Positions 7,682-19,381 of a DNA stretch of 64,000 nt are shown here, piece by piece. This DNA is from Synechococcus sp. CS-1330. Lineage in GTDB: Bacteria > Cyanobacteriota > Cyanobacteriia > PCC-6307 > Cyanobiaceae. Within the stretch, counting starts at the first letter, position 1, and every line of letters starts with the position of its first letter. Under the pieces are notes generated by a model. It was not told where the DNA came from. It was given only the letters and a program-made list of their open reading frames with translations, and ran no database searches. The translations under genes and the position numbers were made by a program. The DNA lies in the NCBI GenBank assembly GCA_025128025.1, contig JAHLYR010000047.1, positions 1 through 64,000 on the forward strand, given 5' to 3'.

Positions 7682-7723
7682 CTGCCACCATCATCGGGCG
7701 CCTTGGCTTGGTCGAATAGCCCC

Positions 7724-9850
7724 ATGGCCACTGATCCCGCCAGTCCAGCTGCCCTAGCCCAGTGCCCCTACTGCGGCGTGGGCTGCGGCCTGGAGTTGAA
7801 GGCTCCCGCTGAGTCCGCCGGCCCGTGGACCGCCCGCGGCGACCGCCACCATCCCTCGTCGCTTGGCCAGGTGTGCATCAAGGGCGCCACCGTGGGCGAA
7901 ACCCTTCACCACAACCGCCTCACCACGCCCCTGTGGCGAGCGCGCACCGACCAGCCCTTTGAGCCGATCAGCTGGGAGCGGGCTTTTGGTTTGCTGGTGG
8001 AGCGCATCGAGGCCACCCTGGCCACCAAGGGGCCCCAAGCGCTGGCGATCTACGGCTCCGGTCAGTTCCTCAGCGAGGACTATTACGCAGCCAACAAGCT
8101 GCTCAAGGGCGCCCTGGGCAGCAATAACTTCGATGCCAATTCGCGCCTGTGCATGAGTTCGGCGGTGGCCGGCTATGCCCGCAGCTTCGGCTCCGATGGC
8201 CCGCCCTGCTGCTACGACGACCTCGATCTGGCCGATCTGGTGCTGCTAATCGGCACCAACACGGCTGAGTGCCATCCGGTGCTGTTCCAGCGGCTGCTTA
8301 AGCGCCGGCGCAAGGGGAATGGGCCGCGTCTGGTGGTGGTGGATCCGCGCGCCACCGCCACCAGCGATGCCGCCGACCTGCACCTGGCGATCGCCCCCGG
8401 CACCGACCTGGCCCTGCTCTGCGGCCTGGGCCACCTGCTGCTTGAGCATGGCGGTGTGGATCGGGCCTGCGTGGCAGCCCACACCGAGGGTTTCGCCGAG
8501 CTGGAGACCCTCTGGCGGGCCTGGCAGCCGGCGCGGGCGGCGGCGGTGTGCGGCATCGCCGAGGCCGACCTGCGTCAGCTGGCCGATTGGTGGATCGCCA
8601 GCCAGGCGGCGCTCAGCCTTTGGTCGATGGGGGTGAACCAGAGCCGCGAGGGCAGCGCCACCGTGGCCGGGATCTGCAACCTGCACCTGGTGAGCGGCCA
8701 GATCGGCCGCCCCGGCGCCGGACCCTTTTCGCTTACCGGCCAGCCCAATGCCATGGGCGGCCGCGAGGTGGGTGGCCTGGCCCAGCTGTTGCCCGGCTAC
8801 CGCGCCGCGAGTGATCCAACGCACCGGGCCGAGGTGGAGAGCCACTGGGGCTTTGCTGCTGGCTCGATTTCGCCAGAGCCCGGCTTGGCGGTGTGGCAGC
8901 AGATCGAGGCGATGGAGCGCGGCGAGCTCGACCTTTGGTGGGTGGCGGCCACCAATCCCTTAGTAAGCCTGCCCAGCCTCGATCGGGTGAGGGCGGCGGT
9001 GGCGAACTGCCCGCTGGTGGTGCTGAGCGAGGCCTATGCCGGCACGGAAACCGAGGCCTTGGCCCACCTGGTGCTGCCGGCGGCCCAGTGGAGCGAGAAG
9101 GCTGGCGTAATGGTGAACTCCGAGCGCCGCGTCACCCTCTGCTCTGCCTTCCGCCAGCCTCCCGGCGAGGCCCGGGCCGACTGGGCGATCTTTGCTGAGT
9201 TGGGCCGGCGTCTCGGTTTTGTCGATCAGTTCAGCTACGCCTCCGCAGCGGAGGTTTATGCCGAATTCGTGGCACTCACGGCCGGCCGGCTCTGCGACAG
9301 CAGCGGTCTCAGCCACGAGCTCCTGGCCGAGCACGGCCCCCAGCAGTGGCCCTTCCCCGCTGGCACCGCCCCCGGCGGCGGCAAGGCGCGCCTCTATGTC
9401 GATCTGGCCTTCCCTACCCCTTCAGGGAAGGCACGCCTCTGGGCTGATCTGCCCATGGGCCTGGCCGAACCCCCCTGCGACTCCTATCCCCTGGTGCTCA
9501 CCGTGGGCCGGCTGCTGGGCCACTGGCACACCATGACCCGCACGGCCCATGTGGCGCGGACGCTCAAGGCCCACCCCGAGCCGCTGTTGGAGGTGCATCC
9601 AAGTGATGCGGCTCGGATGGGCTTGGTGGCTGGGGCCCGGGCCCATGTGCGCTCCCGCCGCGGTGCGGTGTCGGTGAAGGTGCAAATCACCGATCGCATT
9701 CGGCCCGGCACCGTGTTTTTGCCGATGCATTGGGGCGCCTCCCAAGGCGAGCTGGCTTGTGAGGCCAATCGACTGATGCATGAGCTGGGCTGCCCGATTT
9801 CGAAGCAGCCGGAGCTCAAGGCAGCGGCGGTCGCGCTGACGCCGGCCTGA
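7724..9850 (+). CDS. narB: Ferredoxin-nitrate reductase
   Basis: A 708-residue molybdopterin enzyme reducing nitrate to nitrite with ferredoxin electrons. The N-terminal 4Fe-4S motif CPYCGVGCGLE with a fourth Cys in LGQVCIKGAT is intact. SRLCMSSAVAGY provides the Mo-ligating cysteine as in NapA/NarB. The C-terminal molybdopterin dinucleotide-binding domain includes GRLLGHWHTMTRT and ends near HELGCPISKQPELK. There is no signal peptide and no flavin or heme domain, as expected for the soluble cyanobacterial assimilatory enzyme. ATG 7724 fits better than the upstream TTG at 7703. It is convergent with nrtD, one base apart. Confidence 0.95.
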   Translation: MATDPASPAALAQCPYCGVGCGLELKAPAESAGPWTARGDRHHPSSLGQVCIKGATVGETLHHNRLTTPLWRARTDQPFEPISWERAFGLLVERIEATLATKGPQALAIYGSGQFLSEDYYAANKLLKGALGSNNFDANSRLCMSSAVAGYARSFGSDGPPCCYDDLDLADLVLLIGTNTAECHPVLFQRLLKRRRKGNGPRLVVVDPRATATSDAADLHLAIAPGTDLALLCGLGHLLLEHGGVDRACVAAHTEGFAELETLWRAWQPARAAAVCGIAEADLRQLADWWIASQAALSLWSMGVNQSREGSATVAGICNLHLVSGQIGRPGAGPFSLTGQPNAMGGREVGGLAQLLPGYRAASDPTHRAEVESHWGFAAGSISPEPGLAVWQQIEAMERGELDLWWVAATNPLVSLPSLDRVRAAVANCPLVVLSEAYAGTETEALAHLVLPAAQWSEKAGVMVNSERRVTLCSAFRQPPGEARADWAIFAELGRRLGFVDQFSYASAAEVYAEFVALTAGRLCDSSGLSHELLAEHGPQQWPFPAGTAPGGGKARLYVDLAFPTPSGKARLWADLPMGLAEPPCDSYPLVLTVGRLLGHWHTMTRTAHVARTLKAHPEPLLEVHPSDAARMGLVAGARAHVRSRRGAVSVKVQITDRIRPGTVFLPMHWGASQGELACEANRLMHELGCPISKQPELKAAAVALTPA

Positions 9851-9851
9851 C

Positions 9852-10658
9852 CTAATCCACGTCGTGGGCGTAGCGGCGATACAGAAAGTCGAGGGCGTGG
9901 TTGCGCAGCTGGCCGTAGCGGGGGTCGTCCTGGATGGCTTCGTAGCGACGGGGCCGCTCAAAGGGCACCTCGAGGATTTCGCCGATGCCGGCGGCAGGGC
10001 CGTTGGTCATCATCACGACCCGATCGGCCAGAAATAGGGCCTCGTCAATGTCGTGGGTGATCATCAGCACGGTGGGTTTCTGCTCGCGCCAGATCGCCAG
10101 CAGCTCTTCTTGGAGCTCCTCCTTGGTGATGGCATCAAGGGCACCGAATGGTTCATCCAGCACCAGCACCGCTGGTGACACGGCTAGGGCGCGGGCGATC
10201 GCCACCCGCTGGCGCATGCCCCCCGAAATCTGCCCAGGGCGTTTGGCGCGGGCCTCCATCAGGCCCACCATCTCCAGGTGGTGAGTCACAACCTCGCGCC
10301 GGCTTTCGGCAGCCAGTTCGGGCCGGGCCGCTTTGACGGCCATCTCCACGTTTTGCCACACCGTGAGCCAGGGCAGCAGGGAGTAGTTCTGAAAAACCAC
10401 CATCCGGTCGGGGCCGGGCCCTGTGATCGGCTTGCCGTGCAGCGTCACCGAACCGTGGCTGGGCTGCAGAAAGCCAGACACCATGTTGAGCAGGGTGCTC
10501 TTGCCGCAACCGGAGTGGCCGATCACGCAGAGAAATTCCCCCTGCCGCACCTGGAGATTGATGTCACGCAGGGCCTCAAATGGCCCGCGCCGAGTCTGGA
10601 ACACCTGGCCTACGTCCCGAAACTCGAGGAAGGCAGGGCTAGAGGTAGCGGTGGTCAT
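9852..10658 (-). CDS. nrtD: Nitrate/nitrite ABC transporter ATPase NrtD
   Basis: A 268-residue ABC ATPase with Walker A GHSGCGKSTLL, signature ISGGMRQRVAIARAL, Walker B VLVLDEPFGALD and switch MITHDIDEAL. The NrtC/NrtD-type central motif VVFQNYSLLPWLTV is shared with the next gene. It powers nitrate/nitrite uptake together with NrtC and NrtB. The chosen ATG at 10658 overlaps the nrtC stop by four bases (ATGA); the upstream reading to 10832 is low-complexity and not part of the family. It is last in the nrtABCD operon. Confidence 0.92.
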   Translation of the reverse strand: MTTATSSPAFLEFRDVGQVFQTRRGPFEALRDINLQVRQGEFLCVIGHSGCGKSTLLNMVSGFLQPSHGSVTLHGKPITGPGPDRMVVFQNYSLLPWLTVWQNVEMAVKAARPELAAESRREVVTHHLEMVGLMEARAKRPGQISGGMRQRVAIARALAVSPAVLVLDEPFGALDAITKEELQEELLAIWREQKPTVLMITHDIDEALFLADRVVMMTNGPAAGIGEILEVPFERPRRYEAIQDDPRYGQLRNHALDFLYRRYAHDVD

Positions 10659-11470
10659 CGCGAGGTGGCGGCGAGTTGCTTGAGCCGGCGCTGCTCCTGC
10701 AGGAAGTGGATCAGCTCGGCGCGTAGCTGGTAGTAGGCGGGGTGGTCCATCACCGTGAGCCGGTCGCGGGGGCGCGGCAGGGGCACCTTCAAGATGTGGC
10801 CGATGCCGGCTGCTGGTCCGTTGCTCAGGCACACGACCCGATCTGAGAGCAGCAGGGCTTCGTCAACGTCGTGGGTGACCATCACGGCGGTAAGCCCCGA
10901 TTCCTGACAGATCTGCATCAGCTGCTGCTGCAAATTGCCGCGGGTGAGGGCGTCGAGGGCGCCAAAGGGTTCATCGAGTAGCAGCAGCTTGGGCCGGATG
11001 GCCAGGGCCCGAGCAATCGCCACCCGCTGCTTCATGCCGCCAGAGAGTTCGGCTGGAAATTTGTTGGCGGCGGCGCTGAGATTCACCGTCTGGATGTTGC
11101 GCTCAACGATTTCGCGCCGCTCCTGGTTGTTTTTGGAGGGGTAGACGGTGTTTACGGCAAGGGCGATGTTTTGGCGCACCGTGAGCCAGGGCAACAGCGA
11201 ATAGTTTTGAAACACCACCATGCGATCAGGGCCTGGATCGGTCACCTGACGGCCATTCATCAAGATGCCGCCCTCGCTGGCTTGGTCGAGCCCGGCTAGC
11301 AGGTTGAGCAGGGTGCTCTTGCCGCAACCGGAGTGGCCAATCAGCGACACAAATTCGCCTGCGGCGATATCGAGATTGATGCCCTGCAGAGCTACGTAGC
11401 GGCCGCCGTCATCGAGGGGAAATACCTGGGTAACAGCATCGACGCTGATCAGTCCAGCTGGAGTGGTCAT
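10655..11470 (-). CDS. nrtC: Short NrtC-like nitrate transporter ATPase
   Basis: A 271-residue ABC ATPase with Walker A GHSGCGKSTLL, signature LSGGMKQRVAIARALA and Walker B LLLLDEPFGALD. By position (after nrtB, before nrtD) it is the NrtC subunit. Classical cyanobacterial NrtC is about 660 residues and carries a C-terminal NrtA-like domain that mediates inhibition of uptake. Here the protein ends shortly after the ATPase domain, so that regulatory domain is absent. No remnant follows, because nrtD starts immediately with a four-base overlap. Transport should work, but the known post-translational control is probably missing. Confidence 0.88.
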   Translation of the reverse strand: MTTPAGLISVDAVTQVFPLDDGGRYVALQGINLDIAAGEFVSLIGHSGCGKSTLLNLLAGLDQASEGGILMNGRQVTDPGPDRMVVFQNYSLLPWLTVRQNIALAVNTVYPSKNNQERREIVERNIQTVNLSAAANKFPAELSGGMKQRVAIARALAIRPKLLLLDEPFGALDALTRGNLQQQLMQICQESGLTAVMVTHDVDEALLLSDRVVCLSNGPAAGIGHILKVPLPRPRDRLTVMDHPAYYQLRAELIHFLQEQRRLKQLAATSR

Positions 11471-12310
11471 TTAGGCGGCTCCCTTGCTCACCTTGCGCCC
11501 CACCCAGGCCACCAGGCGATCCAGCAGCAGGCCCACCACGCCCACATAAATGATCGCCAGGATTATTTGGCTGGAGCTGGCATCGCCGCCGGCGTTGTAG
11601 GCATCCCAGATGAAGTAGCCGATGCCGCCGTCGGCCTTCAGCATCTCTGCAGCCACGATTGCCAGCCAGGCCAGGCCCACGGCGATGCGCAGGCCGGTGA
11701 ATACGTAGGGCACCGTGGCAGGAATCACGATGTTGCTGATGTAGGCCCGCTTGCTGAGGCGCAGCACCCGGGCCACGTTGTTGTAGTCCTGGGGGATCTC
11801 CTGGATACCCACAGCCGTATTGATAATGATCGGCCAAATTGCCGTAATGAATATTACAAATACCGCCGATGTATTGGCGTCTTGAAACACCATCAGCGAA
11901 ATCGGAAACCAGGCCAGCGGTGGCACGGTGCGCAGCACCTGCACTACCGGATCAAACCCTTTGCCGGCGAAGCGGTTTAGGCCGAGCAGGCCGCCGATGG
12001 CGACTCCCACGACCGCTGCCAGGCCGTAGCCCACTGCCACCCGTTGCAGCGAGATCAGGATCTGCCAGCCAAGGCCCTTGCTAGTGCCACCGTCATCGAA
12101 AAACGGCTGGCTGATGTATGGATCCCAGGTATCAACCAGCACGTTGATCGGGCCGGGCAACCGCTCTACTCCCAGAAGCGCTGAAAGCAGTTGCCAGACG
12201 ATCAGGAAGGCACCGATGCAGAGCAGGTAGGGGAGCACCTGCGGCAGGGTTGGACGCAGCCGGCGACGGCGTCTGGTGGACGCAGGTGATGGAGGAGCAG
12301 TGGTGGTCAC
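11471..12310 (-). CDS. nrtB: Nitrate ABC transporter permease NrtB
   Basis: A 279-residue inner-membrane permease with about six transmembrane segments and a conserved cytoplasmic coupling (EAA) loop around EIPQDYNNVARVLRLSKR, continuing into IVIPATVPYVFTGLRIA. It forms the channel through which nitrate and nitrite pass after delivery by NrtA. It abuts nrtC (stop and ATG adjacent) and follows nrtA by about 40 bases, so nrtABCD is one transcription unit read leftwards. Confidence 0.92.
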   Translation of the reverse strand: MTTTAPPSPASTRRRRRLRPTLPQVLPYLLCIGAFLIVWQLLSALLGVERLPGPINVLVDTWDPYISQPFFDDGGTSKGLGWQILISLQRVAVGYGLAAVVGVAIGGLLGLNRFAGKGFDPVVQVLRTVPPLAWFPISLMVFQDANTSAVFVIFITAIWPIIINTAVGIQEIPQDYNNVARVLRLSKRAYISNIVIPATVPYVFTGLRIAVGLAWLAIVAAEMLKADGGIGYFIWDAYNAGGDASSSQIILAIIYVGVVGLLLDRLVAWVGRKVSKGAA

Positions 12311-12353: not shown

Positions 12354-13670
12354 TCAACTCATCGCCTTGATCTTCTGGGAGTCGAGATAGGCCTTGGGGT
12401 TCTCTGGATCGAAAACAATGCCGTCGAAGAACGTTTCCTTCCCGCGGGAATCACTCGCAGGTATTGCCTTCTCCTGGCCGATGGCGATGGCAGCCTCCTT
12501 CCAGAGATCGGAGCGGTTCACCTGCGCGATCAGGGCCTGAGTGTCGGTGTTGGGAGGCAAGTAGCCCCAGCGAATGTTTTCAGTAAGGAACCAGAGGTCA
12601 TGGCTCTTGTAGGGGAAGGAATAAGAATCGGTGTCCTTCCAAAAGTGCATGCGCAGGGGGGAGTCGGTTACCGATCGCCCATCGCCGAAGTCGAAGGTGC
12701 CGGCTAGACGTGGCTTGATGTCAGAGACACTCGCTTTGAAGTACTTGTCTTTTGACGTGATCTCGCACAGTTCGTCGAGATTGCTGGGGTCCTGACACCA
12801 GATCTGGGCTTCCTGCACCGCCATCAACAGGGCCTTGGCAGCCTTTGGATTCTGTTGCACCCAGTCGGCACGCAGGGAGAAGGCCTTTTCCGGATGGTCC
12901 TTCCAGAGCTCACCGGTGATGGCTGCGGTATAACCCAGCTTTTTGTTTACCAGGCGCTGGTTCCAGGGCTCACCCACGCAGAAGGTGTCCATCGTGCCGG
13001 TCTGCATGTTGGCGACCATCTGGGGCGGTGGCACCACCACCAGATCGGCATCTTTGTTCGGATCTACACCGTTGGCCGACAGCCAGTACCTCATCCAGAG
13101 GTCGTGAGTGCCGCCTGGGAAGGTCATGGCAGCCTTGAGCAGTTTGCCGCTGGCCTTTTTCTGATCGGCGATCTCCTTGAGCTTGGGGCTCTTGAGGGCC
13201 ACTTTGTCGGCCAGGAATTCATTCGACAGCGAAAGGCCCTGACCATTCACATTCAGACGCGCCAGGATCACCATCGGCAATGGCTTCTTGGTCTTGGTGA
13301 TCTTGCCCGCCGTGAGCAGATAGGGCATCGGCGTGAGGATGTGGGCGCCATCAATGCCGCCGCGGCTGCTGCCCAGCTCCAGGTTGTCGCGGGTGGCTGC
13401 CCAGGAGGTCTGTTTCACCACCTTCACCTCGGGCATGCCGTGCTTGGCGAAGAAACCCTTCTCCAGGGCAATGATCAGGGGCGCGGCGTCGGTGAGAGCG
13501 ATGAAGCCCAAGGTGGCAGCCTTCAGCTCAGGTGCCTCCGCACCACCGGCCGGACTTGCCGCTTGATCTTCAGATTTTTTGTTGGGACTGCCACAGGCAG
13601 CTAGCCACAAGGCTCCAGCGGCCGAACCTGCGGCGGTGATCAGAAACTTGCGGCGTGAAAGATTGGACAT
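12354..13670 (-). CDS. nrtA: Nitrate-binding lipoprotein NrtA
   Basis: A 438-residue periplasmic solute-binding protein. The start at 13670 gives MSNLSRRKFLITAAGSAAGA, a twin-arginine-like signal (SRRKFL), followed by the lipobox LAAC, so it should be a Tat-exported lipoprotein. The mature part is typical of NrtA: LGFIALTDAAPLIIALEKGF, GGIDGAHILTPMPYLL and MQTGTMDTFCVGEPWNQRLV. It captures nitrate/nitrite for NrtBCD. Upstream, over the end of the TrpD-like gene, lies an NtcA-like box in the right orientation. Confidence 0.93.
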   Translation of the reverse strand: MSNLSRRKFLITAAGSAAGALWLAACGSPNKKSEDQAASPAGGAEAPELKAATLGFIALTDAAPLIIALEKGFFAKHGMPEVKVVKQTSWAATRDNLELGSSRGGIDGAHILTPMPYLLTAGKITKTKKPLPMVILARLNVNGQGLSLSNEFLADKVALKSPKLKEIADQKKASGKLLKAAMTFPGGTHDLWMRYWLSANGVDPNKDADLVVVPPPQMVANMQTGTMDTFCVGEPWNQRLVNKKLGYTAAITGELWKDHPEKAFSLRADWVQQNPKAAKALLMAVQEAQIWCQDPSNLDELCEITSKDKYFKASVSDIKPRLAGTFDFGDGRSVTDSPLRMHFWKDTDSYSFPYKSHDLWFLTENIRWGYLPPNTDTQALIAQVNRSDLWKEAAIAIGQEKAIPASDSRGKETFFDGIVFDPENPKAYLDSQKIKAMS

Positions 13671-13779
13671 CGCTTGATAGGGATAGGCCGGAGTGGCGGC
13701 AATTGCACTCCGGACGGGCTCCATAAAGAAGCGCACCGAACCGGTCTGAAAATCGAGCCGGCGCGCAGGCTGACCGGTT

Positions 13780-13827
13780 ACATAACAACACCACGGTTGC
13801 CCTCAAGTTGAGGGTTGCAATTGCTAC
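13780..13827 (-). promoter_or_regulatory. Candidate NtcA site upstream of nrtA
   Basis: On the minus strand GTA-N8-AAC (GTAGCAATTGCAAC, 13827-13814) differs from the NtcA consensus GTAN8TAC at one position. A TTATGT -10-like hexamer lies at 13785-13780, about 28 bases downstream, which is longer than the usual 22-23. The site overlaps the stop region of the TrpD-like gene and lies about 145 bases before the nrtA ATG. NtcA is the cyanobacterial nitrogen activator. Assignment by consensus match only. Confidence 0.5.
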
Positions 13828-14945
13828 CGATCGCCGCTTTCGCCGGGATCGGCAAGGGTTCGCCGCAGTCGCTCGCCGCATTGGGAGGCCAGCAGAGCCC
13901 GCGCTTGCTCCAGGGCGTCAGCAAGGTTTTCGAAGCGACCGGCCAGCCAGAGGTAGGCCCCCAGATTCCAGAGCAGGGGCACAGCCAGGGGGCCTTCACC
14001 ACCCAGGGCGGCTAGCGCCTGCTGCTGCCAGCTTTGCAGGTTTTCCCAGGCGATCTCATCGCCGTTGAGGCCATGGTCTCGGGGGTGCAGAAGCAGCCGC
14101 TCCAGCGAGCCGTCGCGGACCCGGGCGGTGATGCCAGCCCGGCTTGTAGGCAGGTCGGTTGACCCCTCCAGGCCCTTCACCGTGAGCACCTCGCTTTCAC
14201 CGGCGGTGGCCAGGGCCTCCCAGGCCCGTTTTTCGGTAGGGGGATGGACGAAGCCACTCACTAATAAATGGTCGCCGCAGTGGGGGGTCCAAAGCAGTTC
14301 CAGGCTGGCCACGGGGGGGCGCTTGCCAATTTCATCGCGCACGGGCAGCAACCTTTCCGCCGCTGGGAAGTGGTCGGGCTGGTGTGTGAGGGCCAGGTGG
14401 TGGGCGCTCAACCGTTGCTGCAGAGCAGCGAGGCTGAGCCCTCGCCACTCAATGCCGAGGGCGGCGAACAGTTCGGCCAGGGTGACGCCGTACTTAACCG
14501 GCATCGGGTCGCCGCCGTGCAGCACCACCGGGATCTCGGCGCTGGCAAGCACTAGGGCGAGTAGAGGCAGCAGGGGGGCGGTGCGGCTGCGGCCGTCGTA
14601 GGGCACGCCGAAACAAATGGCCTGGCGGCCAGGGGTCTGCAGCTTTGGGCCGTGGCTGCGATAGCTGTCGAGCATGCCGGTCAATTCGATCGGCAGCGGC
14701 CGGCGAATCCGGTGGGCGATCAGGAAGGCTCCCAGCTGCGCATCGCTTGCCTGGCCCTGGAGCATCAGGTCCATGGCGTCGCGGGCTTCATCGCGGCTGA
14801 GGCCCGTGCTGGTGTGCTCGCCACTGCCCACCTTGGCAATAAGTTCGCGAAAGCGCGCCCGCTCGGGGCCGAGGCCATTGAGGCGCTGCAGGCGTCTAAG
14901 CCCCGCATCTGCCGCCGGTGCTGCGGGTGGTAGCGATTGCGACAC
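13824..14945 (-). CDS. Anthranilate phosphoribosyltransferase-like protein (TrpD2 type)
   Basis: A protein of about 373 residues related to anthranilate phosphoribosyltransferase: RFRELIAKVGSGEHTSTGLS, DAQLGAFLIAHRIR, then VVLHGGDPMPVKYGVTLAELF. In true TrpD the PRPP loop is GTGGD; here the corresponding stretch reads VPYDGRSRTAP, so tryptophan synthesis is unlikely. Family members are regularly found in cyanobacterial nitrate clusters with unproven function. The longest frame starts at 15005, but those 20 residues overlap palindromes of the nirA control region and lack homology, so I favour GTG 14945. It lies between nrtA and divergent nirA. Confidence 0.72.
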   Translation of the reverse strand: MSQSLPPAAPAADAGLRRLQRLNGLGPERARFRELIAKVGSGEHTSTGLSRDEARDAMDLMLQGQASDAQLGAFLIAHRIRRPLPIELTGMLDSYRSHGPKLQTPGRQAICFGVPYDGRSRTAPLLPLLALVLASAEIPVVLHGGDPMPVKYGVTLAELFAALGIEWRGLSLAALQQRLSAHHLALTHQPDHFPAAERLLPVRDEIGKRPPVASLELLWTPHCGDHLLVSGFVHPPTEKRAWEALATAGESEVLTVKGLEGSTDLPTSRAGITARVRDGSLERLLLHPRDHGLNGDEIAWENLQSWQQQALAALGGEGPLAVPLLWNLGAYLWLAGRFENLADALEQARALLASQCGERLRRTLADPGESGDR

Positions 14946-14994: not shown

Positions 14995-15116
14995 CGTTTT
15001 CCCATTTTTGTTATCCGGCGGCGTAGCTCTCATCGGCGCTTGCTCGGACCCCCCTGCAGCTCTGTGGCGGCAGGGAGGGCAAGCCGAGGTTGTTCCGTGT
15101 TCCGAGCGTCCGCCCC

Positions 15117-16655
15117 ATGACGAGCCCAACCATTTCTGCGGCCAGCCAGCCGGAGCTCAGCAAGATCGAGCAGGCCAAGGTCGAGCCATGTGGGCTGGAG
15201 CTGGCGCCTCGCCTCGAGGAGCTGGGCCGCCAGGGCTGGGAATCGCTCGACGAAGCCACGCTCACGATCCGGCTCAAGTGGCTGGGGATCTTCTTCCGTC
15301 CGGTGACCCCGGGGCGCTTCATGGTGCGGCTGCGGCTGCCCAACGGCGTGATCTCGGCCGACCAGCTGGAGCTGCTGGCTGAGGCGATCGATCGTTGTGG
15401 CGAGCACGGCAGTGCCGACATCACCACCCGCCAGAATCTGCAGCTGCGAGGCCTGCTGCTGGAGGACATGGCGCCCCTTTTGCAGGCCCTGGAGGCTGGG
15501 GGTCTGACCAGCCTCCAATCGGGTCACGACAACCCTCGCAACATCACCGGCAACCCGTTGGCGGGCATTGACCCGGAGGAGATCGTCGACACCCGCCCCT
15601 TGGTGGAGGCGATTCAGGCGCGGCTGCTGGGCCCCGCTGGCCCCCGCAACCTGCCGCGCAAATTCAATGTGGCCGTGGGGGGCGCTCCAGATAGCTTCCT
15701 GCTGCACAACGACCTGGCCTTCCTGCCGGCTGAGCACAACGGTGAGCTGGGTTTTACGGTGCTAGTGGGAGGCTTCTTTTCAGCCCAGCGCAACGAGTTG
15801 GCGATCCCCCTGGGCCTGTGGCTGCGGGCTGAGCAGCTGGCTGACTTCACCCTGGCCTTGCTGTGCCATTTCGAGTGCCACGGCAACCGCCAGCAGCGCA
15901 ACAAAAGCCGGCTGATGTATCTGATCGACCAGCTCGGGATCGATGCTTACCGGGCTGAGCTGGTTGAAGCCTTTGCCGAATCCGTGCTCCCCCACGATGG
16001 CTCCCACCTGGTAAACTGGGTCCCCCGCTCGGGCCTGGGCGTCCATGCCCAGAAGCAGGAGGGGCTCCACTGGGTGGGGCTGCACGTGCCGATGGGCCGG
16101 TTGGACGCGGCTTCGATGCTGGAACTTGCTGCTTTGGCGCGCACCTATGGCAGCGGCGAGCTGCGTCTCACCGAGGCCCAGAACGCTTTGATTGTTGATG
16201 TGCCCGGCGCTCGCCTCGAGGACCTGCTGGCCGAACCTCTGCTGCAGCGCTTCCGCCCCGACCCCTCGACCCTGCAGGCCGAAGCGGTGAGCTGCACCGG
16301 CAGCGCCTACTGCAGCTTCGCTTTAATCCCCACCAAGGGTGTGGCCCAGCAGGTGCTCGAAGAGCTGGAGCAGCGCATCGAGTTACCTGAGGCGGTGCGC
16401 ATGCATTGGACCGGCTGCCCCAATGCCTGTGGCCAGCCCTACATGGGTCAGATCGGGCTGATGGGTGCGAAGGCCCGTAAGGATGGTCAGATGGTGGAGG
16501 CGGCCAAGATCTTTCTTGGCGGCTCCATGGGCGCCGAGCCCAAGCTGGCCGAGCTGCATGAAAAAGGCGTACCCCTCAGTGATCTTGCCGATGTGCTGGA
16601 GCTGCTGCTGCTGGAGCAATTTGGAGCCCGGCGCCGCGAGCCGGCGGGCTCCTGA
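15117..16655 (+). CDS. nirA: Ferredoxin-nitrite reductase
   Basis: A 512-residue siroheme/4Fe-4S enzyme that reduces nitrite to ammonium with six electrons from ferredoxin. The cluster-binding cysteines are visible as CTGSAYC and GCPNACGQPY (C-x5-C and C-x3-C). The N-terminal half carries the ferredoxin-like repeat (FFRPVTPGRFMVRLR; ITTRQNLQLRG) and the second repeat the siroheme-binding HWVGLHVPMGRL and ELRLTEAQN. ATG 15117 is chosen over an in-frame upstream start at 15090. It heads an operon with a CbiX-like chelatase and cobA, which supply its siroheme. Confidence 0.95.
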   Translation: MTSPTISAASQPELSKIEQAKVEPCGLELAPRLEELGRQGWESLDEATLTIRLKWLGIFFRPVTPGRFMVRLRLPNGVISADQLELLAEAIDRCGEHGSADITTRQNLQLRGLLLEDMAPLLQALEAGGLTSLQSGHDNPRNITGNPLAGIDPEEIVDTRPLVEAIQARLLGPAGPRNLPRKFNVAVGGAPDSFLLHNDLAFLPAEHNGELGFTVLVGGFFSAQRNELAIPLGLWLRAEQLADFTLALLCHFECHGNRQQRNKSRLMYLIDQLGIDAYRAELVEAFAESVLPHDGSHLVNWVPRSGLGVHAQKQEGLHWVGLHVPMGRLDAASMLELAALARTYGSGELRLTEAQNALIVDVPGARLEDLLAEPLLQRFRPDPSTLQAEAVSCTGSAYCSFALIPTKGVAQQVLEELEQRIELPEAVRMHWTGCPNACGQPYMGQIGLMGAKARKDGQMVEAAKIFLGGSMGAEPKLAELHEKGVPLSDLADVLELLLLEQFGARRREPAGS

Positions 16656-16670: not shown

Positions 16671-17978
16671 TTGAGATCTGCCCTGCCCCAGTGCGAGCCT
16701 GCCCAGCTGCCGGCCTGCGGTTCCCCGGCGCGTTGGGGCTGGCTGCAACAGCTGCGCAACCAGCCCGAGCTGGATCCTGAACCCTGGCTGCTGGCGCTGG
16801 AAAACGGCAGCCTCAGCATCGCCCCAGACCTGCTTGCCGTGTTGGCGGAGCGGCTCGATCCTCTGGCCCAGCTGCGTTTGCTGCGTTGGTGGCGCCAGCA
16901 GCCCGATCCGGATCCAGGCCTGCCCAGCCAGGTGCTGCGTCAGCGGGATGGGGCTAGTGCCGCCTGGCTGCTGCAGCAATTGGCCCCCGGCCCGGCCGCT
17001 CTTGGCCAGGCCGTGGCGCTAGCCCTGCTGCCCCTGCTGGGTCACCAGCGCCAGGTTGCGGCTTGGCCCGTGCTGCTGAGCTGGATGGGGGCTCCAATCG
17101 CCACCCCATTGCGGCGCGCCGCTCTCGAAGGGGTAGCCCGTGGTTTATCGGTGTGGCCCCGGCACCAGTTAGTCGCTGGCCTCAGCGCCCTGGCCGGCGA
17201 CCTCGATCCCCAGCTGGCCGCCCCGGCGGTGGATCTGCTGGCCCGCCTGCCAGGGGCCCGCCGCGCCCTGGTGCCCCTCCGCCGTCGCCGGCTCGATCCC
17301 CAGGTGGCTGAGCGCCTCGGCCGCCGCCTCGCTGCTACGCCGGTCCAACCCCTGCTGCTGGTGGTGCACGGCCGCGCGGGCGGCCAGCTGCCTGCCGAGT
17401 TGGTGGCGCTGGCCGCCGAGCTGGAGTGCCGCCGTGGTGCGCCCGTGCGGCTACAGGCCCTTTCGGCTGCGGCGCCGGCGGCGGCGAGTGAGCTGCTGCA
17501 GCCGGGTCAGGTTCTCGGCTTGGTGCCGCTGCTGCTGCTGCCCGGCGGCCATGTGCGCCACGATTTGCCGGCGATCGTGCGCCATTGGTCGGCTTTTGCC
17601 CGCGTGCAGCACTGGCCCTTCCTGGGGGCCTGGCCCTGCTGGCAGGCCGCCCTCGCTAAGGAGCTGGCCGGATTGGCTACGCAGGATGCCCGGCCCTTAC
17701 TGCTGCATCACCCCTTGGAGGGTCCCCTGGCAGCGCGGTATCTCACCACCCTGGAGCGGCGCACCGGCGCCCACTGCGTCGCCACTCCATACAGTGCAAA
17801 GCACCTCGCGGAGCTGAAGCTGACCCTTGCCGCTCCAGCCCTTGCCGCTCCAGCCTTGGCCCTTGCTCTGGCCGCCAACCGGCTCACCGACCAGCTAGCC
17901 GAGCAGGTGGGTCCGCCGTTGCTGCAGCGGCCTGGCCTGCGCCAGCTGCTGCTGGCTGAACTCGAGGCCCTGCCATGA
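16671..17978 (+). CDS. HEAT-like repeat/CbiX-type chelatase fusion
   Basis: A 435-residue protein in two parts. Residues about 1-222 are leucine-rich helical repeats resembling HEAT repeats (for example LRRAALEGVARGLSVWP). Residues about 226-430 resemble CbiX/SirB chelatases: LLLVVHGRAGGQLPAELVAL with His233, and LLLLPGGHVRHDLP with His294 and His297. In small class II chelatases such histidines bind the inserted metal. It sits between nirA and cobA and overlaps cobA by four bases, so insertion of iron into sirohydrochlorin is the likely job, though unproven. It starts at TTG 16671, preceded by a strong GGAGGG. The C-terminal region has a short LAAPA duplication. Confidence 0.75.
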   Translation: MRSALPQCEPAQLPACGSPARWGWLQQLRNQPELDPEPWLLALENGSLSIAPDLLAVLAERLDPLAQLRLLRWWRQQPDPDPGLPSQVLRQRDGASAAWLLQQLAPGPAALGQAVALALLPLLGHQRQVAAWPVLLSWMGAPIATPLRRAALEGVARGLSVWPRHQLVAGLSALAGDLDPQLAAPAVDLLARLPGARRALVPLRRRRLDPQVAERLGRRLAATPVQPLLLVVHGRAGGQLPAELVALAAELECRRGAPVRLQALSAAAPAAASELLQPGQVLGLVPLLLLPGGHVRHDLPAIVRHWSAFARVQHWPFLGAWPCWQAALAKELAGLATQDARPLLLHHPLEGPLAARYLTTLERRTGAHCVATPYSAKHLAELKLTLAAPALAAPALALALAANRLTDQLAEQVGPPLLQRPGLRQLLLAELEALP

Positions 17979-18763
17979 GTGCCCCGGCCCAGCTCGGCAC
18001 GGTTTACCTGGTGGGGGCGGGTCCCGGTGACCCGGAGCTGCTCACCCTCAAGGCCCACCGGCTGCTGCGGCAGTGCGACGCCCTCGTCTACGACTCCCTG
18101 GTGCCGCAGGCCCTGCTGAATCTGGTGCCCCAGGGCTGCGAGCTCCACTTTGTCGGCAAGCGCCGCGGTCACCATTCCGTGCCGCAGCCAAGCACCAATG
18201 CGGTGCTTGTGAAACTGGCCAGTCGCCATCGCCTGATCGTGCGGCTTAAGGGCGGTGATCCCTTTTTGTTTGGCCGCGGCGGCGAGGAGGCGGCCCACTT
18301 GGCCGCCAGGGGCGTGCCGGTGCAGGTGGTGCCTGGGGTAACCGCTGGCATCGCGGCTCCGGCCTATGCGGGCATTCCTGTTACCCACCGCCGCGCCGGC
18401 TCCAGCGTCACTTTCGTGACGGGCCACGAGGAAATCGATAAGGGCCGCCCAGGGGTGAACTGGCGCGGCCTGGCCCAGACCAGTGATGGCTTGGTGATCT
18501 ACATGGGCCTGCATAACCTGCGCCGCATCGCCGAGGAGCTGATGGCGGGCGGCTTGGCGGCTGACACGCCGGCGGCGGTGATCCAGCAGGGCACCGTGCG
18601 CGGTCAGCGCCAGTTGGTGACCGTGCTGGGTGAGCTGGCCGACCGGGCTGAGGAGCAGGATTTCGCTTCGCCATCAATCGTGGTGCTGGGCGAAGTGGTG
18701 GCCCAGCGGGTGCCGGTCTGTGCCCCCGAGCCCGCTGATGTGGAGATGCCGATCCCCTTCTGA
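17975..18763 (+). CDS. cobA: Uroporphyrinogen-III C-methyltransferase
   Basis: A 262-residue SAM-dependent methyltransferase making precorrin-2, the first step from uroporphyrinogen III to siroheme. It has VYLVGAGPGDPELLTLKAHR at the N-terminus, RLKGGDPFLFGRGGEEA, and the SUMT region GIPVTHRRAGSSVTFVTGHE. It is a single-domain SUMT without CysG oxidase/chelatase parts. The dehydrogenase that makes sirohydrochlorin is not in the window. It is coupled to the preceding chelatase-like gene by an ATGA overlap. Confidence 0.93.
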   Translation: MSAPAQLGTVYLVGAGPGDPELLTLKAHRLLRQCDALVYDSLVPQALLNLVPQGCELHFVGKRRGHHSVPQPSTNAVLVKLASRHRLIVRLKGGDPFLFGRGGEEAAHLAARGVPVQVVPGVTAGIAAPAYAGIPVTHRRAGSSVTFVTGHEEIDKGRPGVNWRGLAQTSDGLVIYMGLHNLRRIAEELMAGGLAADTPAAVIQQGTVRGQRQLVTVLGELADRAEEQDFASPSIVVLGEVVAQRVPVCAPEPADVEMPIPF

Positions 18764-18904
18764 TTCAAGCCAGTCTTCTTGATGGGTAGTGGTTGCGACG
18801 GCCGGCCCCCCGGTGGTGAGTTTCATTAGGGCTTGATTTGGCAGTGCCTGCTGCCCTTACCGATGCCTGTCCCTTCCCGGCCTGCCCCTCCCCGGTCTGC
18901 GCCG

Positions 18905-19381
18905 ATGTTTGAGCTGATTCCTTACGAGAAGTTCCGCGATACCCCCGCTGTTCGTTTCTTTGATATCACCGTTGCCAGCTCCAATGCCCGCGATCTGGTG
19001 ATCCATGCCGGTCCGGCCGTGAGCCCTCCGGATGAGGAGAAGACTGGTGCCTGGCAGTTTTATCTGCACCCCCACCAGGAAGATAATTTGCTGGCCCTGC
19101 ACGGCGGCCGAACTTTTTACTTGGTCAATTTGGGCTGGAATTATCCGTATCACATTGTTCGCCTAGAAACAGGTGGCGACATCCTGCGCATCCCTCCGGG
19201 AACTTTTCACCGTTCCGTTTCTGATCACGATGGTTCGGTGGTGCTTAATCAGGCTGTGCGCGAGGAGGGCGCCAGCGTGGTGCGGGAGTTTCGGGTATAT
19301 AATAGCCGCCTCATTCCCCGTTTATTTGCTACAACATTCAAAACGGCCCCCCTGCCTAAATTGCACGGGGTTAGCTGGTAG
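18905..19381 (+). CDS. Cupin-fold conserved protein
   Basis: A 158-residue protein with a single cupin barrel: WQFYLHPHQEDNLLALHGGR holds His residues and a Glu in a cupin motif 1-like arrangement, and RIPPGTFHRSVSDHDGS corresponds to motif 2. It resembles RmlC-like cupins without a known reaction. ATG 18905 is preferred because the 24 residues upstream are proline-rich and unlike a cupin. It lies 140 bases after cobA on the same strand and may be the last gene of the nirA unit; function unknown. Confidence 0.65.
   Translation: MFELIPYEKFRDTPAVRFFDITVASSNARDLVIHAGPAVSPPDEEKTGAWQFYLHPHQEDNLLALHGGRTFYLVNLGWNYPYHIVRLETGGDILRIPPGTFHRSVSDHDGSVVLNQAVREEGASVVREFRVYNSRLIPRLFATTFKTAPLPKLHGVSW

Follow-up and report, generated by a model that had tools for sequence, protein, structure and literature searches.

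In the window, the whole stretch of 64,000 nucleotides that was analysed, a gene for a TrpD-like protein lies between an nrtA-like gene and nirA. The genes of this cluster and the features found on the TrpD-like gene, which we file as cnaT for the reasons given below, are as follows.

7703..9850, plus strand: narB-like nitrate reductase (NasC and related assimilatory models, all under their cut-offs; name taken from gene order)
9852..11470, minus strand: nrtC/nrtD, two nitrate ATP-binding proteins (ntrCD, 383 and 397 bits, cut-off 292)
11471..12310, minus strand: nrtB, nitrate permease (ntrB, 352 bits, cut-off 209)
12354..13736, minus strand: nrtA-like substrate-binding protein (SsuA_fam alone, under its cut-off; name taken from gene order)
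13824..14945, minus strand: cnaT, TrpD-like protein of 373 aa (open reading frame; GTG start at 14945)
13884..14561, minus strand: Glycos_transf_3, C-terminal a/b domain of CnaT (Pfam)
14589..14603, minus strand: PYDGR, residues 115-119 of CnaT, in place of the GTGGD PRPP loop
14649..14846, minus strand: Glycos_trans_3N, N-terminal helical domain of CnaT, residues 34-99 (Pfam; coordinates derived from residue numbers)
14930..14943, no strand assigned: NtcA-like box GTCGCAATCGCTAC (written for the minus strand), differing from GTAN8TAC at one position; it lies where cnaT starts, in the divergent region that cnaT shares with nirA
15090..16655, plus strand: nirA, ferredoxin-nitrite reductase (PRK09566, 668 bits, cut-off 594); the ATG is probably at 15117
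16671..17978, plus strand: marginal CbiX-domain protein (23.6 bits, cut-off 22)
17975..18763, plus strand: cobA, uroporphyrinogen-III C-methyltransferase of the siroheme branch (TIGR01469, 306 bits, cut-off 185)

The start codon of cnaT is the GTG at 14945, and the sole other usual in-frame start upstream is an ATG at 15005, which is an alternative. Pfam recognised both domains of the product, Glycos_trans_3N with 55.4 bits (cut-off 26) and Glycos_transf_3 with 40.1 bits (cut-off 27). The AlphaFold model (pLDDT 86.3, pTM 0.85) matched anthranilate phosphoribosyltransferases with a best Z of 35.9 (2.4 Å over 323 aligned residues), so that the TrpD fold proposed in an earlier, sequence-only reading of this DNA is borne out by domains and model alike. 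NCBIfam model PRK07394 (NF005635, 'hypothetical protein') gave 480 bits against a curated cut-off of 287. The models for TrpD (TIGR01245, 78 bits, cut-off 199), YbiB/TrpD2 (PRK08136, 122 bits, cut-off 185) and PRK09071 (100 bits, cut-off 257) all scored below their thresholds, and the best PDB sequence matches were YbiB chains. A canonical trpD is present on a separate contig of the same genome (C25; 284 bits to Glycos_transf_3).

Frias, Herrero and Flores reportedly found in 2003 that expression of the nir operon in PCC 7120 needs cnaT. Given the PRK07394 score, the ntcB-cnaT gene order and PMC9430850, the window gene is best filed as a picocyanobacterial cnaT and a probable orthologue of cnaT of PCC 7120; its orthology to all0601 of Nostoc/Anabaena PCC 7120 rests on gene order and the same paper. 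According to that paper, Nostoc/Anabaena PCC 7120 is reported to require cnaT in order to express its nir operon, and the nitrate region of Synechococcus WH7803 contains cynS together with cnaT, described as an element that positively regulates expression of the nirA operon; a citation in it dates the naming of cnaT to 2003. PMC10161378 reports that nrtABCD of freshwater picocyanobacteria is flanked by a gene for an anthranilate phosphoribosyltransferase, which it classes among 'unrelated genes'. No biochemical mechanism for CnaT was found in the literature searched, from which subscription papers were mostly absent. The earlier suggestion of a nitrogen-related role that had not been defined was therefore partly right: the link to nitrogen stands and the mechanism is undefined in that literature, but a role in nir expression had already been reported under the name cnaT. 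The gene find itself is ordinary, cnaT being known already, and its interest lies in the mechanism and in new comparative clues.

Like cnaT of PCC 7120 (all0601) and WH7803, the window gene encodes a TrpD-like protein of a nitrate cluster, and its kin follow ntcB in other cyanobacteria. It differs from the PCC 7120 gene in lying between nrtA and nirA and in belonging to a genome in which NtcB was not found (best LysR match, 31%). A cynS gene lies beside cnaT in 10 of 30 short loci (L045-L074). NtcA-like boxes recur upstream of cnaT in 22 of 24 related loci, a count made without a shuffle control, and this recurrence alone among the box data may be called suggestive; over the whole window, one-mismatch boxes numbered 62 against a mean of 59.9 expected, which is not above chance.

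Two neighbouring frames deserve a brief description. The CbiX-domain protein (16671-17978) is 435 aa long, carries CbiX at residues 242-320 after a long N-terminal extension, and is a candidate siroheme chelatase. Downstream of cobA, an ORF of 182 aa (18833-19381) gave no Pfam or NCBIfam match and recurs in several Cyanobium-type loci.

CnaT motifs, phylogeny and proposed function

We compared motifs in 92 CnaT rows, some of them nearly identical and a few representing the same gene twice, with those in 22 TrpD rows. GTGGD was found in 0/92 CnaT and 22/22 TrpD rows, KHG[NS] in 0/92 and 20/22, and G.DE anywhere in the protein in 4/92 and 22/22. The CnaT loop at the PRPP site reads VPYDGRSRTAP, and the loss of GTGGD noticed earlier in the window protein is confirmed by these counts. 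P[YF]DG[RK] was present in 91 of the 92 CnaT rows, the sole exception being a truncated ORF of 247 aa, and GKRP, VH.PTE and [KN]GLEG were present in all of them. The CnaT motifs were invariant in 18/18 aligned CnaTs, including three from genomes without NirA. Judged by these motifs, loss of the PRPP-binding signature is family-wide in CnaT.

Phylogenetic analysis against TrpD and TrpD2/YbiB, a check suggested in the sequence-only reading, returned CnaT as a separate clade: CnaT and TrpD each formed a clade of their own (100/100), and CnaT grouped with TrpD rather than with YbiB (100/98, unrooted tree). The CnaT clade included ntcB-linked genes of other cyanobacteria (13 CnaT rows, branch 100/100), and in a second tree 31 CnaT rows fell on one side with a support of 99; the trees took 31 and 13 of the 92 rows, partly hand-picked. 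The nearest outside relative found was a Halorussus plasmid protein, placed as sister of CnaT in the 13-row tree (98/85) on a long branch, a placement that is not secure. CnaT thus shares with TrpD the fold and two-domain make-up but differs in its clade and in having lost the PRPP-site motifs. With YbiB/TrpD2 it shares the missing GTGGD and the best PDB match, but differs in clade, score and loop motif. The 'glycosyl transferase family' proteins of PRK09071 are likewise TrpD-like, and some of them occur in nas operons; CnaT differs from them in score, loop motif and tree branch.

What might such a protein do? CnaT has the phosphoribosyltransferase fold and, because the PRPP-binding residues are lost, would make no phosphoribosyl-anthranilate. 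Because a distinct set of motifs is strongly conserved (PxDGR where the PRPP loop used to be, K151, RDxxGKRP, VHxPTE, and GLEG with D264), CnaT has most likely retained the ability to bind some small molecule. Ligand binding, the identity of the ligand and contact with a regulator are what we infer: the ligand would come from the nitrite/siroheme branch, its binding would raise expression of the nir genes, and CnaT would act with the LysR regulator NtcB where NtcB exists. In the window's organism, where no NtcB was found, CnaT would reach nir expression by another route. We give a probability of roughly 0.45 to this reading, which makes CnaT a regulator of the nitrite/siroheme branch that works by sensing a ligand.

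Its close rival, a serious possibility to which we give somewhat less credence, is that CnaT serves the siroheme branch or nitrite reductase, either as an enzyme or as an assembly helper; a shortage of siroheme or of active nitrite reductase would then lead indirectly to the loss of nir expression that has been reported. We favour the ligand-sensing regulator because it accounts for the phenotype reported for nir expression, for the ntcB tandem and for a group of LysR fusions described below. A helper would better explain why such genes adjoin cobA/cysG, why some lie mid-operon and why CnaT persists in genomes that lack nitrate genes; on the other hand, no known siroheme-enzyme catalytic motif was noticed in CnaT, without a dedicated motif search.

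Neighbours of cnaT in cyanobacteria

The PRK07394 search covered the cyanobacterial phylum, 14 control genomes and individually named proteins. The model exceeded its cut-off in 161/386 genomes of the phylum and in 1/14 controls, among which Synechococcus elongatus was the sole cyanobacterium. A genome scan for cnaT found 41 loci in cyanobacteria and a single distant one in an alphaproteobacterium. Both nirA and nrtA accompanied cnaT in 31 of the 41, some of the other ten being cut by contig ends; the linkage to nitrate genes is found in relatives as well. Among the matches listed, Cyanobacteriia (n = 186) divided into 155 with CnaT and NirA, 7 with CnaT alone, 5 with NirA alone and 19 with neither, counts that ignore relatedness and score one weak CnaT match (G383, 1.2e-83) as present. 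The distance between cnaT and nirA in 139 genomes with both, again among the matches listed, was within 20 kb in 60 and farther on one contig in 34, and the genes lay on different contigs in 45; within the window's family they were within 20 kb in 26/28 genomes (matches listed).

Outside the window's family, ntcB (LysR) was found directly upstream of cnaT on the same strand in 34/45 loci, corresponding to 32/42 genomes (three genomes are counted twice among the loci). In PCC 7120, too, cnaT follows ntcB. The gaps ranged from -17 to 294 bp, with one of 809, and one NtcB of these loci was confirmed by Pfam. There was no ntcB beside cnaT in 11 of the 45 loci, three of them just 4 kb long, which counts against a regulator.

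The position of cobA favours a helper of the siroheme branch in the window's own family. Among the matches listed for 127 family genomes with both genes, cobA lay within 10 kb of cnaT in 106; the two were on one contig in 110, within 350 bp in 22 and on different contigs in 17. Outside the family, by contrast, no cobA/cysG match was found near cnaT in 29/29 longer loci; cobA is therefore unlikely to be linked to cnaT everywhere, and the result tells against a helper.

Genomes that have lost one partner cut both ways. Three genomes that are 99-100% complete (G114, G165, G223) have no NirA, NarB or NtcB among the matches listed and have kept CnaT. The place of NtcB is taken there by a 29-31% LysR paralogue alone, cnaT stands head-to-head with cobA, and the conserved CnaT motifs are retained. 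Because these genomes keep CnaT, its role cannot be confined to nitrate genes or NtcB, a point against the regulator and in favour of the helper. Four other genomes (G161, G209, G259, G294) have NarB and NirA and have lost CnaT (matches listed), so that nitrate genes can evidently do without CnaT in some genomes, a further point against the regulator. Their queC-pabB-pabC-cobA-MFS-ppk row is otherwise intact, with about 0.1 kb from cobA to the MFS gene, and the same row occurs in G163, which has no NarB. All five carry cobA without CnaT, which argues against a helper. Altered evolution of cobA after loss of cnaT was considered and rejected: identity to the cobA of locus L080 was 57-59% in the cnaT-less lineage versus 64-76% in the cnaT-bearing picocyanobacteria compared, and identity of the control Ppk drops alike (59-60% versus 67-79%). 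Four genomes (G304, G314, G389, G798) carry two copies of cnaT on the same contig, separated by about 10 kb.

TrpD-like relatives beyond the cyanobacteria

We found eight proteins that consist of a LysR-type HTH and a TrpD-like domain and have no LysR substrate-binding domain (Pfam, 8/8). They are encoded at L099 7521-9041, L100 7533-8984, L101 7530-8978, L136 and L144-L147; seven lie on alphaproteobacterial plasmids, the eighth being L136. All eight genes adjoin genes for TonB receptors or iron-chelate transporters, and their products are annotated as 'glycosyl transferase family protein', LysR regulator or hypothetical. Because the substrate-binding domain is missing, the TrpD-like domain of this related branch would occupy the place of the LysR effector. 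Together with the ntcB-cnaT tandem, the fusions support a regulatory, ligand-sensing CnaT by analogy, and a purely enzymatic role would be less natural in them. The support counts as analogy because the fused domains group as a single clade inside PRK09071 or next to it, outside the CnaT clade, and their place on the PRK09071 side also weighs against the regulator.

TrpD-like genes also lie beside nitrate and siroheme genes in other bacteria. Plasmids of Sulfitobacter and Ponticoccus show the order nirB-nirD-nitrate reductase-(TrpD-like)-cysG, and in these two Rhodobacterales nas operons the TrpD-like gene lies mid-operon with a 4 bp overlap with the nitrate reductase gene. On a Catenovulum plasmid the TrpD-like gene follows nitrate reductase, with cobA-nirB-nirD farther along; an Acinetobacter plasmid locus had no cobA/cysG. 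Mid-operon genes beside nasA and cysG favour a helper, and the Rhodobacterales arrangement with its overlap is unusual for a regulator. Delftia plasmid pKV29 carries a TrpD-like gene without annotation; a candidate cobA/TrpD-like fusion on it was rejected, as cobA begins just before the TrpD-like match ends, overlapping its final bases.

The neighbourhoods of 60 TrpD-like loci from the phylum of an alphaproteobacterium were compared with those of 20 trpD controls. Forty of the loci represent all 38 genomes over the cut-off among the 299 searched, together with two that fell below it; the other 20 were hand-picked from lower rows with larger contigs preferred, and the controls likewise. cobA/cysG was near 24/60 TrpD-like loci versus 0/20 controls (Fisher p 0.0004, or p 0.007 when the eleven Pseudomonas-like loci are taken as one), in keeping with a helper, while the 36/60 loci that show none count against it. 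NasA was near 12/60 loci versus 1/20 controls, a difference that is not significant (p 0.17). The single control match was partial at 28%, and operon-type cases alone, by our own reading, gave 12 versus 0 (p 0.03); a uniform-position expectation gives far smaller values and ignores relatedness. At L104-L114, which are Pseudomonas-like by inferred group and make up 11 of the 24, a PRK09071 protein lies near cysG with no nas genes in the stretch.

A single archaeal case also favours a helper. The Halorussus plasmid locus (L075 6176-10403) holds in a row an unannotated CbiX-domain ORF, a DR2241 gene, cobA, the CnaT-like gene and a ferredoxin gene. The CnaT-like protein, annotated as anthranilate phosphoribosyltransferase, has a YDG[RK].[RK] loop in common with CnaT.

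The remaining two explanations fare worse than the regulator and the helper. CnaT could be a sequence-independent nucleic-acid binder like E. coli YbiB, acting on nir expression via DNA or RNA, as its best PDB matches and the GTGGD missing from both would suggest; some members over the YbiB cut-off also sit in nas-cobA clusters (L179, L180). We consider this improbable in view of the separate clade, which joins TrpD (100/98 in the unrooted tree), the 122 bits against a cut-off of 185 and the different loop motif; pI and net charge do not separate the families. A working anthranilate phosphoribosyltransferase, or a PRPP user with another acceptor, agrees with the TrpD fold and with conserved motifs that suggest a used site, but is very improbable with both PRPP-site motifs missing in 92/92 rows and a separate trpD in the genome.

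There is also a wider reading, which we regard as doubtful. Both Bacteria and Archaea might generally employ catalytically altered TrpD-fold proteins, as a component so far without a name, when they assimilate nitrite with the help of siroheme. CnaT, the haloarchaeal relative and members of PRK09071 and PRK08136 would then sense or handle an intermediate of the siroheme branch; the steady partner of CnaT in picocyanobacteria would be CobA rather than nitrate as such, and the same fold would have become the effector domain of LysR-type regulators of iron-chelate uptake. Surveying the literature by title or abstract opening, with few subscription papers, we found no treatment of TrpD-like proteins in nitrate/siroheme operons across phyla and nothing on LysR/TrpD-like fusions. 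Genes for TrpD-fold proteins recur next to those for siroheme and nitrate use in groups far apart; this recurrence and the LysR fusions point to a testable class of ligands. They also suggest that some 'anthranilate phosphoribosyltransferase' and 'glycosyl transferase' labels in nitrate operons mislead. Finally, a further TrpD-like branch (L168-L177) was seen in genomes of 2.2-3.0 Mb, below the PRK09071 cut-off, with two of its loci beside ABC ATPase-like genes.
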